NCBI GenBank assembly: GCA_020433785.1
Contig: JAGRCC010000384.1
Span: 1 to 7,476, forward strand
Reading direction: 5' to 3'
DNA: 7,476 bases
From: Anaerolineae bacterium
GTDB taxonomy: Bacteria > Chloroflexota > Anaerolineae > 4572-78 > J111
Each line of letters starts with the position of its first letter. Position 1 is the first letter of the stretch. The position numbers and the translations under genes were made by a program. Shown here piece after piece: positions 1,008-5,507 of the stretch. The notes under the pieces are model-generated. The model did not search any database. It had not been told where the DNA came from and was given only the letters and a program-made list of their open reading frames with translations.

Positions 1008-1013
1008 GGAGGA
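1008..1013 (+). promoter_or_regulatory. Ribosome binding site of the exported protein gene
   Basis: GGAGGA lies 12 bases before ATG 1026. The spacing is slightly long, but this is the only strong Shine-Dalgarno nearby and it supports 1026 as the start. That start is also the one that yields a complete signal peptide. Confidence 0.6.
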
Positions 1014-1025
1014 ATATCAAATACG

Positions 1026-2030
1026 ATGTTACGATTTTGGTCCACCCTGCATCGATATGGGACGGCGACCGGCGTTTGGCTGGTCAGGGCCGGCTTGGGA
1101 ATGGCTTTGGTTTTAACTTGGTCAGCCATTAGCCGGGCCGACACCCCCCTCAAACCCAGCGGCAGCGCTGAAACTGCGGTGTCGGTCTGGGTCCCCGAAG
1201 GGGCGCTGTCTGAGCCGGCGTCGCTGTTGGTTACAGCCGATTATTTGTCGGAGGACAATTTACCGGCCGGAATTACGGCGCCGCCCGGTACGGTTGGCAG
1301 CCCCATTACCTTTGGCATCTGGCAGGGCGAGAGTCAAATTTATACAAATTTTAATCCCTCCCTGGTGATCAACATCCAGTATAATGAAGAAGATGTCCCC
1401 GCCGATGTTCTGGCCGAGGAACAAAGCCTCCACCTTTTCATGTATCAGCCCACCCTGCAAACATGGGTCAAGCTGTGTACCAGCGTTCAGATTGACGAGA
1501 ATCTTCTCTCCGCCGCGTTAGCCCGCGTTGTGCCCGCCGAAGACCAGGGCAGCGTGCTGTTGGCTATCGCCCCGGATAGATCGGCCCCGTTAACGCAGAC
1601 GGTCGACAGCAGTGGCTTGACCGAGATCACGTCGCCCGACAGCGATCTGCGGTTTCAGGTTCAATCCGCTTCTGTGCCGGACGGAACCCATTTTGTCATG
1701 ACCGTCCTGCCCTCATCGGCCGCGGCTGGCTCGTTGCAACTGCTGTCTAATCCGGTCGATATCAAGGCTTGCCACGTGGACCATACCAATCCCACCCAAA
1801 ACACCGTTGAAATGACCAGCTTTTTCTTCAAGCCGCCCCAAGTGGCTTTCAGTTTCAATGCCGCCACCCTCTCCCGGGCCGGGCGAACGACTAACCTCAC
1901 GGTAGCCGGCATGTTTGATAATCAAAATTGGATCGATCTGGAGGCGTTTGGCTCCCGTTTAGTCCGTGAGCGTCGGATGGTAGCTGTCGATACCCCCGTA
2001 CTGGGCGCCTTTAGCCTGGCTACCCGTTAG
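1026..2030 (+). CDS. Exported beta-rich protein with two similar, possibly ZU5-like, modules
   Basis: The 334-residue product starts with a signal peptide. It has a basic N-terminus (Arg3, Arg10, Arg21), a hydrophobic stretch at about 22-35, and a Ser-Arg-Ala motif at 36-38 that fits signal peptidase I cleavage before Asp39. The mature part has no membrane helix, lipobox or sorting signal. It looks like two beta-sandwich modules, about 50-182 and 200-332. The first opens with Val-Pro-Glu-Gly-Ala-Leu. Each carries a Trp-[Val/Ile]-x-Leu strand (W147, W302) and ends in a hydrophobic strand of similar type. The Val-Pro-Glu-Gly-Ala-Leu opening and the later 'strand, Tyr/Phe, Trp-Val-x-Leu' order recall bacterial ZU5-like domains, but I am not sure of that family. 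The gene ends 7 bases before the TIR gene and very likely shares its message, so the product may modify, shield or act as ligand for the outward part of that protein. No enzymatic motif is visible. Expression and export are well supported; function unknown. Confidence 0.82.
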   Translation: MLRFWSTLHRYGTATGVWLVRAGLGMALVLTWSAISRADTPLKPSGSAETAVSVWVPEGALSEPASLLVTADYLSEDNLPAGITAPPGTVGSPITFGIWQGESQIYTNFNPSLVINIQYNEEDVPADVLAEEQSLHLFMYQPTLQTWVKLCTSVQIDENLLSAALARVVPAEDQGSVLLAIAPDRSAPLTQTVDSSGLTEITSPDSDLRFQVQSASVPDGTHFVMTVLPSSAAAGSLQLLSNPVDIKACHVDHTNPTQNTVEMTSFFFKPPQVAFSFNAATLSRAGRTTNLTVAGMFDNQNWIDLEAFGSRLVRERRMVAVDTPVLGAFSLATR

Positions 2031-2037
2031 TTGCTCA

Positions 2038-5000
2038 ATGGACGATATTTTTATTTCGTACTCGCGGCGAGACAAAACGTTCGTCCAAAAATTTCACCAA
2101 GCCCTAGTCGATAATGGCCGCAGCGTCTGGGTCGATTGGGAAGGTATTCCCCTAACCGCCGACTGGCGGGCCGAGATTCGTTCGGCTATCGAGTCGGCGG
2201 ACTGTTTTATCTTCATCCTCAGCCCTGACTCGATTATCTCCGAAATATGCCATCAAGAGTTGGCTCACGCCGAAGGGTTCAATAAACGGATTGTTCCGAT
2301 CGTTTATCGAGATGTGGACCCCGACAACGCGCCTGGAACCTTGGCCTCGATCAACTGGTCGTTTTTTCGCGACAGCGATGATTTTAACACCGCTTTAGAA
2401 GCGCTGTCCGAAGCCTTAGATACTGACCTGAAGTGGGTTAAAATTCATACCCGGCTGCTAGTCCGGGCGCTTGAATGGGATAACCGGAAGCGCAACCGCA
2501 GCTATTTACTGCGCGGCGATGATTTGATTGAGGCCGAGCATAATCGCACAGTCCACGCCGAAACGCCGCCGACGCTAACCCGGTTGCAGGGTGAGTATAT
2601 TTTCACCAGCCGTGAGGATGCGCTGCGCCGGCAGCGGCAGCGGATGATCGCCATTAGTTTGGGGTTGGTCCTCGCCACCGTGTTGGCCATTCTCGCTTTC
2701 TGGCAGTTTCGAGTGGCCCAAGACCAACGGTATATTGCCGAAGAGCGTCGAGTGGAAGCCGAAGATGCCCGCTCTACGGCCGAATTGGAGCGTGATCGGG
2801 CTGAGTTAGCCGAACAGGTGGCCAAAACCGAGCGCGATAGAGCTATCCGGCAGAACCAAATTTCGCTGGCTAAATCATTGGCCTCCCTGGCGCCGCCGCT
2901 GGTAACCCGCACCGGCAACACCGAATTGGGTGCACTATTGGTTGTGGAAGCGGAGCGGCTCAACACTGAAGCCGTCGGCAATGCGCGGCCCTTGATTGAC
3001 AGCGCCTTCCGCCAAATTTTGGGCGAGTCAAACTTTAACGCTATCCTGGGGGTTTATGAGGCCGAGGTCACGGCTATGGCCTTTAGCCGGGTTGAGACTG
3101 AAACCGTGTCCCTGGCCTACGGTCTGGCCGATGGCACCATTCTGCTGTGGCCGGACATTAACGACTACGCGGCTGAACCTATTGCCTGGCAGACAGACAG
3201 TGGTCTAACCGCCCTGGCCTTTAGCCCCACCGAGCCGGACCGCCTGGTCTCGGCCGGCGATGATGGCCTAATTCTACTATGGCGGCTAAGTGACTCGGCC
3301 GCGCTGCCCAGCCAAGAACGGGTCTTAGAGGCCCATCCCGGTGGGGTATCGGCCATCGCCTTCAGCCCCGATGGCCGGCGTCTGGCCTCCAGTGGTCGTA
3401 GCAGCGGGTCCATTCGGCTGTGGGATCTGGTGACGCCGGCGGCTCGTCCTCAAGAAATCGGTACGCAAGAGATTTTAGTGACCGACCTGGCCCTGAGTCC
3501 TGACGGCCAGACTCTGGCTACCGTAAGTAATAACCCGGTGACCGGACCGGTGGTCAAATTGTGGGATTTAACCAATCTAACTGCGGAACCGCGCGAACTT
3601 CATGGCCACACGGTGACCATCCGAGCCGTGGATTTCAGCCCGGACGCCCAATGGTTGGCTTCGGCCGGAGCCGAGGGTTTCGGCGGAGCCGAGTGGGTCA
3701 TTCGCTTGTGGTCGATGGCCGATCTCGAGGCCGACCCCCAGATTTTGCGGGGTCATACCGGCAGCATTGGCGATTTAGTATTTAGCCCCGACAGCCAGAC
3801 CTTAGCCTCGGCCAGTTTGGACCAAACCATCCGCCTGTGGCCGATCGGCCCTGAGGCTGGCCAAATCGAGGTGCTGCAGGGGCACACCGCCGAAGTCCAG
3901 GCCATTGCCTATAGCCCCGACGGTGAGTTTTTAGCGTCCGGCAGCGATGACCAATCGGTCAGATTATGGCACACCGGCGCTCCCTCGGCGGCTCCCCTCA
4001 CGTTGGTTGACAATATGCTGGTGGGCAACCTGGCCTTTAGCCCGGTTGATCCTAACCTGTTGGCCGTGTTGGTTGATAACACGGTCCAACTGTGGCGAGT
4101 CAATCCGGCTAGCCAAGTTGGCCTGCTGGAAGGCCAGGCCGGTGAACTACGTTCGTTGGCCTTTAGCCGTGACGGTCAACGATTGGCTGCGGGCGACGGC
4201 GATGGAGCGGTCTGGCTGTGGGATGTGACCGAGCCGGCAGAAGCCTCACCGCAGTCGCTGCTTAGCCACGAGAGTGTGGTGCTATCACTGGCCTTTAGCC
4301 CGGATGGCCACTGGCTGGCATCGGGCGACCTTGAGGGCCAGATTAATCTGTGGGACTTGACAGCCGGCGTGCCTGAACCGCAGCCCTTGCCGTCAACTCA
4401 TCTGGAAGGCATATCCGGCCTGGCTTTTAACCCCAACGGCCAGTCTCTGGCCTCCGCCAGTTTTGACGGGCTGGTCAATTTATGGAGTTTGGACACGCTG
4501 GAACCCCAACCCCTGCCACTTGAGAACACGCTGGATGTAGAAACGCTGACCTTCAGTCCGGATGGCCAATATCTGTTAATCGGCGGCGGAGATAACAATG
4601 TTGGGCTGGTCTGGCGGTGGGATCTGGCTGAGGCAGAGGGGGTCGCGCTGCGGGGGCATCGAGGTCGTGTCTTTTCTCTGGCCTTTAGCCCCAACGGCCA
4701 AACACTGGCCTCTGCCAGCTTCGACGGCACGGTGCAGTTGTGGGACATCGAAGCGCCGATGGTCAGCCCGACCATTCTGAGCGACCATCAGGATGGTGTC
4801 CGGTCGGTATCATTTAGCGCCGACGGCCAGTGGCTGGCCACAACCGGCGATGATTTCTCGCTCAAACTATGGATTGCCCAAACCCAAACGCTGGCCGACC
4901 GCGCCTGCCGGCAGGTTCGCCGTAATCTAACGCCGTTGGAATGGCAGCAATATCTGGGCGATGAAACGTACCAATTAACCTGCCCCAATTTACCCCGGCC

Positions 5001-5058
5001 AAGCGCTACAACCCCCACCCCTGTCGCCATACCCTCAGTTGAACCCGAGAACAAATAG
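2038..5058 (+). CDS. TIR domain - transmembrane helix - coiled coil - 14-blade WD40 protein
   Basis: The 1006-residue multidomain receptor-like protein begins with a TIR domain (about 1-135). It shows the opening Phe-Ile-Ser-Tyr-Ser-Arg-Arg-Asp (5-12), Trp31/Trp34 before the BB loop, and Ser68-x-x-Cys71-x-x-Glu74, where Glu74 matches the catalytic glutamate of TIR NAD-cleaving enzymes. A linker with basic Arg197-Arg202 leads into one hydrophobic helix (about 203-224). A highly charged coiled coil (about 228-275) and a helical stretch (276-335) follow. Then come 14 WD40 blades (about 336-950), ending in W371, 415, 462, 509, 558, 601, 644, 686, 728, 772, 816, 861, 902 and 945. The tail (951-983) holds Cys957 and Cys982, followed by a Pro/Thr-rich end. 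The positive-inside rule puts TIR in the cytoplasm and the propellers outside. The start is fixed by the TIR domain beginning at residue 3. No Shine-Dalgarno precedes it, so translation is probably coupled to the upstream gene. By analogy with other TIR NADases, ligand-induced clustering could trigger NAD loss or a nucleotide signal. Domain calls are firm; the role is inferred. Confidence 0.93.
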   Translation: MDDIFISYSRRDKTFVQKFHQALVDNGRSVWVDWEGIPLTADWRAEIRSAIESADCFIFILSPDSIISEICHQELAHAEGFNKRIVPIVYRDVDPDNAPGTLASINWSFFRDSDDFNTALEALSEALDTDLKWVKIHTRLLVRALEWDNRKRNRSYLLRGDDLIEAEHNRTVHAETPPTLTRLQGEYIFTSREDALRRQRQRMIAISLGLVLATVLAILAFWQFRVAQDQRYIAEERRVEAEDARSTAELERDRAELAEQVAKTERDRAIRQNQISLAKSLASLAPPLVTRTGNTELGALLVVEAERLNTEAVGNARPLIDSAFRQILGESNFNAILGVYEAEVTAMAFSRVETETVSLAYGLADGTILLWPDINDYAAEPIAWQTDSGLTALAFSPTEPDRLVSAGDDGLILLWRLSDSAALPSQERVLEAHPGGVSAIAFSPDGRRLASSGRSSGSIRLWDLVTPAARPQEIGTQEILVTDLALSPDGQTLATVSNNPVTGPVVKLWDLTNLTAEPRELHGHTVTIRAVDFSPDAQWLASAGAEGFGGAEWVIRLWSMADLEADPQILRGHTGSIGDLVFSPDSQTLASASLDQTIRLWPIGPEAGQIEVLQGHTAEVQAIAYSPDGEFLASGSDDQSVRLWHTGAPSAAPLTLVDNMLVGNLAFSPVDPNLLAVLVDNTVQLWRVNPASQVGLLEGQAGELRSLAFSRDGQRLAAGDGDGAVWLWDVTEPAEASPQSLLSHESVVLSLAFSPDGHWLASGDLEGQINLWDLTAGVPEPQPLPSTHLEGISGLAFNPNGQSLASASFDGLVNLWSLDTLEPQPLPLENTLDVETLTFSPDGQYLLIGGGDNNVGLVWRWDLAEAEGVALRGHRGRVFSLAFSPNGQTLASASFDGTVQLWDIEAPMVSPTILSDHQDGVRSVSFSADGQWLATTGDDFSLKLWIAQTQTLADRACRQVRRNLTPLEWQQYLGDETYQLTCPNLPRPSATTPTPVAIPSVEPENK
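3043..4887 (+). repeat. Fourteen tandem WD40 blade units within the TIR gene
   Basis: Units of 41-49 codons (mostly 42-45) repeat in phase, each with an Ala-Phe-Ser-Pro-[Asp/Asn]-Gly-type turn and a closing [Arg/Lys/Gln/Asn]-Leu-Trp. The 13-mer CTGGCCTTTAGCC recurs exactly at 3214, 4030, 4288 and 4678, with near copies at 4159 and elsewhere. DNA-level similarity is therefore limited to the turn motif, while the blade faces have diverged. This suggests an old repeat array rather than freshly amplified blades. Confidence 0.9.
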
Positions 5059-5351: not shown

Positions 5352-5387
5352 AACCGTTATTCTTACCGATAAGGATAGCGGTTTTTT
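5352..5387 (+). terminator. Intrinsic terminator closing the exported protein/TIR operon
   Basis: Arms 5352-5365 and 5370-5383 form a 14-bp stem (12 Watson-Crick pairs, two G-U) with a CCGA tetraloop, followed by a run of six T (5382-5387). There is no T run in the opposite direction, so it acts on + strand transcripts. It lies about 290 bases after the TIR stop and separates that operon from the PAS/GAF gene. Confidence 0.88.
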
Positions 5388-5507
5388 ATACTTAAGTTGA
5401 ACTGTTGCCCCTTAAGCTCACCCGGACTTTATTATCGTCCTATGGCCTGCCATTCCGGGAATTTACACATCTCATCGGCCCAATTTTTGACCCATTGCCC
5501 GTATGCC
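5388..5507 (+). promoter_or_regulatory. Leader of the PAS/GAF gene, weak promoter candidate
   Basis: Because a strong terminator lies just upstream, the PAS/GAF gene should have its own promoter here. The best pair I can see is TTGCCC (5405-5410) and TATTAT (5430-5435), but the 19-base spacer is long and the -35 match is only four of six. Two CTTAAG sites (5391-5396 and 5411-5416) flank the start of this stretch. The position of the promoter is therefore unsure. Confidence 0.25.

Follow-up and report, generated by a model that had tools for sequence, protein, structure and literature searches.

We analysed a 7,476-nt stretch of Anaerolineae DNA (the window) and found two adjacent + strand genes, ORF A and ORF B, separated by 7 nt (Table 1). 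This confirms a preliminary description of the same DNA, which had reported a signal-peptide protein and a TIR-transmembrane-WD40 (TIR-TM-WD40) protein 7 bases apart. The final ~35 nt 5' of A are similar in the window and at a related locus, L001. Whereas GGAGGA precedes A, no ribosome site was seen 5' of B in the window, at L001 or at a third locus, L009. Hence, translation of B is likely coupled to that of A.

The strong terminator that had been placed behind the pair is present but starts about 290 nt downstream of B, and a terminator-like hairpin also lies upstream (615-645). The single promoter proposed in front of A was not recovered: the scan of the window gave three promoter-like sites versus 4.2 expected from shuffles, and none of the three falls between the upstream hairpin and A (646 to 1026). 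A loose -10-like TAAAAT near 949, seen by eye in the sequence, was not counted as a promoter, and no window match reached the Rfam gathering score. Beside the pair, a frame at 4-324, cut by the window start, weakly resembles DUF6036 nucleotidyltransferases (E 0.12). A gene for a PAS-GAF protein starts at 5397 and is open at the window end.

Table 1. Features of the A-B locus, in window positions.
Feature	Position	Strand	Basis
GGAGGA ribosome-binding site of A	1008..1013	+	inside the ~35-nt stretch shared with L001
ORF A, exported-looking protein, 334 aa	1026..2030	+	12 other clusters, 64-82% identity
A residues 1-38, predicted signal peptide, S-R-A/D site	1026..1139	+	sequence; low pLDDT in 1-38
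A residues 41-184, first ZU5-like sandwich	1146..1577	+	model
A residues 186-334, second ZU5-like sandwich (also GAIN-like), less sure	1581..2027	+	model
ORF B, TIR-transmembrane-WD40 protein, 1006 aa	2038..5058	+	domain matches, hydropathy, model
B residues 4-123, TIR domain with C71 and E74	2047..2406	+	TIR_2 E 7.5e-25
B residues 203-221, predicted membrane helix	2644..2700	+	hydropathy; positive charges on TIR side
B residues 241-328, helical stalk and linker	2758..3021	+	model
B residues 334-946, 14 WD blades	3037..4875	+	56 strands in model; WD40 E 3.5e-104
B residues 949-982, C-terminal helical cap with C957 and C982	4882..4983	+	helices in model
Terminator-like hairpin and T run, 14-pair stem, behind the pair	5352..5383	+	

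Protein B has a TIR_2 domain, one membrane helix and WD40 repeats in that order, and the helix is the single hydrophobic stretch that our hydropathy script found fit to span a membrane. The model allows the blades to be read as two seven-bladed propellers, and both cysteines of the cap are present in all 12 aligned rows that extend this far. Of 46 TIR-TM proteins, the window's included, 42 carry more lysine and arginine on the TIR side of the helix than on the other side, with four ties and no opposite case, and the number of cysteines after the helix is even in 42; the relatives are non-independent samples, and the 46 include two proteins truncated by the end of a contig. Hence, from the charge bias, a topology with TIR inside and the WD40 propellers outside is more likely, in line with the outward-facing propellers considered in the preliminary description.

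The TIR residues C71 and E74 (a C-x-x-E motif) are conserved in 46 of 46 aligned TIR-TM proteins. E74 aligns with a glutamate in two of four solved chains and with a threonine in the two chains of Toll-receptor-related 2. B carries the conserved glutamate of TIR NAD+-consuming enzymes, and we take this residue, E74, to be the catalytic one.

Animal Toll-like receptors have an outer repeat domain, one membrane helix and an inner TIR domain, and by analogy B would share this plan. However, its TIR domain is N-terminal, its repeats are WD40 blades, and nothing suggests common receptor descent. Its TIR domain also resembles Thoeris proteins (best PADLOC ThsB model, E 2e-10; NCBIfam ThcB4, E 2.4e-6, 26.7 bits versus a cut-off of 220), from which B differs in its predicted place in the membrane and in its WD40 repeats. 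No ThsA was matched among the three proteins of the 7.5-kb window put to PADLOC, the PAS-GAF protein not being one of them. The PADLOC candidate HEAT-ARM_XIII matches B residues 477-692 (E 8.2e-38); since this match falls among the WD40 repeats, and 197 of the 1972 model positions are covered by its best stretch, we took it as repeat likeness.

Protein A begins with a hydrophobic stretch and an S-R-A/D signal-peptidase-like site, and S36, A38 and D39 are invariant in 13 of 13 aligned rows. Searched at E 1, its sequence matches no family of Pfam, NCBIfam or PADLOC, and we saw no wall anchor or further domain in it; against the sequences of solved structures, the A profile gave one weak match, to an axonemal protein (E 0.9). 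With the AlphaFold model (mean pLDDT 84.7), all eight Foldseek matches at E ≤0.001 were ankyrin ZU5 structures (E 1.3e-6 to 2.6e-4), and UNC5b and GAIN domains were also among the structural likenesses. Of the two modelled ZU5 sandwiches, the second is the less secure. We thus predict a tandem ZU5-like protein, a fold that is new in this analysis and fits the two modules described for A before. The term 'ZU5-like' is used in place of ZU5 superfamily membership because no curated ZU5 sequence model matches: with E values allowed up to 10, and search filters dropping most matches above 0.1, none of the 20 A proteins matched Pfam ZU5.

Only some ZU5 superfamily members carry an autoproteolytic motif, of which H[FL][ST] is one pattern. 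CxH is another, according to PMC3482391. Both patterns are absent from A in 20 of 20 rows. A is predicted to share the fold of ankyrin and UNC5-type ZU5 domains and of adhesion GPCR GAIN domains, and differs from them as a short exported-looking bacterial protein with neither a Pfam ZU5 match nor these patterns. C151 and C249 occur together in 15 of 15 sequences (13 close relatives and the A proteins of L009 and L010), are both absent from five of five distant relatives of ~370 aa, and probably form a disulfide.

Elsewhere, we found the pair again at two loci. At L001 (genome G001), A is followed after 9 nt by a TIR-TM-WD40 gene; we read the neighbouring genes as aldolase-type and glnE-like. 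At L009 (G105), the interval is 15 nt, A is 41% identical to that of the window, and B, cut by the contig end, has diverged to 46%. The flanks differ among the window, L001 and L009, while the pair is kept. Since conserved relatives of both ORFs are neighbours again at these loci, the pairing is, as judged by sequence comparison, more than chance. WD40-bearing open frames number at least 14 in G001, at least 5 in G105 and at least 9 in G201; from these lower bounds, at about one gene per kb, we estimate chance adjacency at roughly 0.2-0.3% per locus or somewhat more, and few independent loci stand behind the pairing. That it is kept in some relatives suggests that A may work with the outer part of B. 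Nine flanking proteins of L001, L009 and L010 were put to PADLOC, and the two with matches, an AAA protein read as FtsH (IetA/TRIP13 models, best E 1.7e-22) and a protein read as RelA/SpoT (PDC-S33, E 5e-19), are read as generic hits.

At L010 (G201), the neighbour has another head. A 1952-aa Pkinase-nSTAND1-TM-WD40 gene (4879-10737) is followed 83 nt later, on the same strand, by a gene for a 402-aa A-like protein, the reverse of the order in the window, and the kinase-nSTAND-TM-WD40 protein has a C-terminal Cys pair resembling that of B. A membrane WD40 gene thus adjoins three of four full-length A loci, with two kinds of inner head. Since the neighbour at L010 is not a TIR protein, it may be the WD40 half, not the TIR head, that A goes with, on the evidence of this one locus. 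It is possible, if rather doubtful, that the exported tandem ZU5-like family acts as ligand or co-receptor for membrane WD40 receptors with interchangeable inner heads (TIR or kinase-nSTAND), which would be a bacterial counterpart of ligand-plus-Toll-receptor signalling across a membrane. The same neighbour, with an A that looks exported and unanchored, would also fit a diffusible ligand for both B and the kinase receptor, making a bacterial ligand-receptor pair between cells. We regard this as improbable: release of A is an assumption, and a complex made in cis is favoured because a single gene pair supplies both A and B to the cell that carries it.

The fourth full-length locus, L012 (G001), has a 370-aa A relative that stands alone, without a membrane WD40 neighbour; it follows what we take for the last part of CobN and precedes an opposite-strand gene. 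In a phylum-wide search, 17 of 400 genomes matched A, and in the 16 besides G001 the matches covered only parts of A residues 34-178 and lay within frames of 421-2469 aa. Such parts fit a surface domain, and ZU5 domains have been reported from large bacterial surface proteins (PMC3482391). Together with the solitary relative, they favour an account in which A is an ordinary surface or wall protein with its own job outside and B guards it, sensing envelope damage or attack. The lack of any wall anchor or further domain in A and the apparent translational coupling of B to A argue against this, and we consider it unlikely, while still a serious contender.

The spread of A is narrow. The A set comprises 13 protein clusters including itself (64-100% identical to A), and the three with organism names are all Anaerolineae; a wider-profile protein search gave 18 clusters, namely these 13 and five of ~370 aa (27-31% identity to A). 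For B, nine clusters including itself lie at ≥69% identity, after which identity drops to 42-44%. Besides the window's own, longest contigs of 4719, 33895, 8634 and 32793 bases recur in the A and B cluster lists, which suggests the same contigs; the pair was read directly on the 33895-base contig (L001) alone. Eight of 13 A clusters and four of nine close B clusters have no longest-contig size in common with the other list. The unmatched A clusters include contigs of 34604, 15515, 8709 and 5349 bases, some of which could fit both genes; since the lists name only the longest contig of each cluster, these neither show nor exclude pairing.

With the A profile, four of 396 genomes of the class matched, one of them weakly, and within the order of G001 seven of 25 genomes matched at E 0.01: three hold the four full-length loci, and the other four gave weak partial matches only. 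We did not count as A the G122 match (E 8.7e-6), which is confined to a short part of a 614-aa frame, or the weak partial matches from G297, G288, G144 and G212. No A relative was found in viral contigs.

In comparison, the TIR-TM-WD40 family is wide. At E 1e-40, a TIR-helix-linker profile hit 37 of the 396 genomes of the class and gave at least 66 TIR-TM matches, a lower bound since at most five candidates were scored per genome, and neighbourhoods were covered for 45 of them (G001, G105 and 43 others), calling frames ≥70 aa and keeping the longest of overlapping frames. All 43 TIR-TM proteins outside the paired loci have TIR_2 and 41 have WD40; like B, the family has the predicted membrane helix and the conserved cysteine and glutamate. 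Unlike the window, none of these 43 loci shows an A-like frame within the stretch read, which at L136 is shortened upstream because the contig ends there, and the best other A-profile match there has E 0.52 (L143). A is also absent from all 11 loci of another set, of which L072 and L073 are counted among the 43 as well. The neighbours vary (an ABC-type ATPase by our own reading, a C39-like peptidase, a SLATT protein and others). B-like matches also occur in cyanobacteria and a myxobacterium in the protein search listing, and sources name TIR-TM-WD40 relatives 'TIR domain-containing protein' or 'WD40 repeat protein'.

Hence, this receptor type does not need A, and the exported partner is, from these neighbourhoods, an add-on of one cluster. 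The preliminary description had asked how often homologues of the two proteins adjoin and named frequent TIR-WD40 homologues without the exported neighbour as evidence against a module: the close readable loci are paired in three of three cases, window included, while the wide family lacks A throughout. What stands of the proposed two-gene module is a conserved TIR-TM-WD40/exported-looking unit; its generality fails with the wide family and the solitary A relative. The A-B pair is thus, by comparison of loci, a real but narrow module.

In a tree of 56 rows, the nine close B proteins grouped with support 100/100, and L009, L073 and L072/P0023-P0025 group around this clade in an unresolved fork, so the pairing may have been lost or gained around the close clade, both being compatible with the tree. 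Labels on ten rows, three of them assigned by shared contig size alone, fitted the tree no better than shuffles. The narrow spread, with full-length A in three of 25 order genomes and at 0 of 43 other TIR-TM loci, would fit neighbours with separate functions whose pairing was inherited by descent in one lineage. The pair has nonetheless been kept despite changed flanks and divergence to 41% (A) and 46% (B), and a relative of A also adjoins a WD40 receptor with another head (L010); we find this account improbable.

Other neighbours of TIR-TM genes were also noted. By the hydropathy rule, exported-looking same-strand neighbours within 150 nt, besides the three A loci, occur only at L126 (238 aa), L145 (439 aa) and, doubtfully, L130 (109 aa), and we rejected an exported neighbour as a general TIR-TM feature. 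The L145 protein (503-1822), without a Pfam match, is encoded 27 nt downstream of the TIR-TM gene. L134 (19-10127), from another Anaerolineae genome, encodes a HEAT-cNMP protein, a C39-like peptidase with SH3 domains, the TIR-TM-WD40 protein 15 nt later, a SLATT protein and a TPR-S protein; the same peptidase gene, recognised by its N-terminus, also lies just upstream of the TIR-TM gene in L125, L132, L135, L137, L138 and L140. At L113, a 400-aa gene (3418-4620) 37 nt downstream of the TIR-TM-WD40 gene has weak likeness to nucleoside deoxyribosyltransferase and CAP12-type TIR, and a 139-aa frame that begins similarly lies 41 nt downstream at L116. In L073 (4341-6335), a short TIR-TM protein (389 aa) is followed after 24 nt by a 266-aa protein that weakly matches glycosyl hydrolase 16.

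We tentatively favour, at slightly under an even chance, a two-part cell-surface receptor made of A and B, in which A is a WD40-binding co-receptor or brake and TIR activity is the output. The one helix of B would anchor it so that TIR is cytoplasmic and both WD40 propellers lie outside the cell. A would be exported, fold outside as a tandem ZU5-like protein, probably with one disulfide (C151-C249), and bind the WD40 ectodomain of B as co-receptor or brake, while coupled translation of B to A would keep the two proteins in proportion. An outside event, either a ligand on A or the loss or damage of A, would then alter the clustering of B, whose TIR domains would cleave NAD+ or make a nucleotide signal. 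A could be a ligand, cofactor or inhibitor, as the preliminary description had proposed, and NAD loss and phage defence could follow; a defence role is possible, and envelope sensing is an equal candidate.

To our knowledge, TIR defence in bacteria has been described mostly as an intracellular affair. Bacterial conflict systems with TIR, STAND, WD40 or ZU5 parts, several from Chloroflexi, are described in PMC9218822, PMC7159879, PMC8195603, PMC10907252 and PMC3482391. Among the literature matches listed, which are mostly outside subscription journals and were available in part, a TIR-TM-WD40 protein with an exported ZU5-like partner is not described; the preliminary description had not recognised the arrangement as a known system either. 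If the favoured receptor model is true, these bacteria would have a membrane TIR receptor with an outside sensor and a dedicated exported partner, a receptor that reads the outside and answers by TIR chemistry. With the ZU5-like fold, one more component of death and receptor proteins of animals would then turn up in a bacterial receptor setting.
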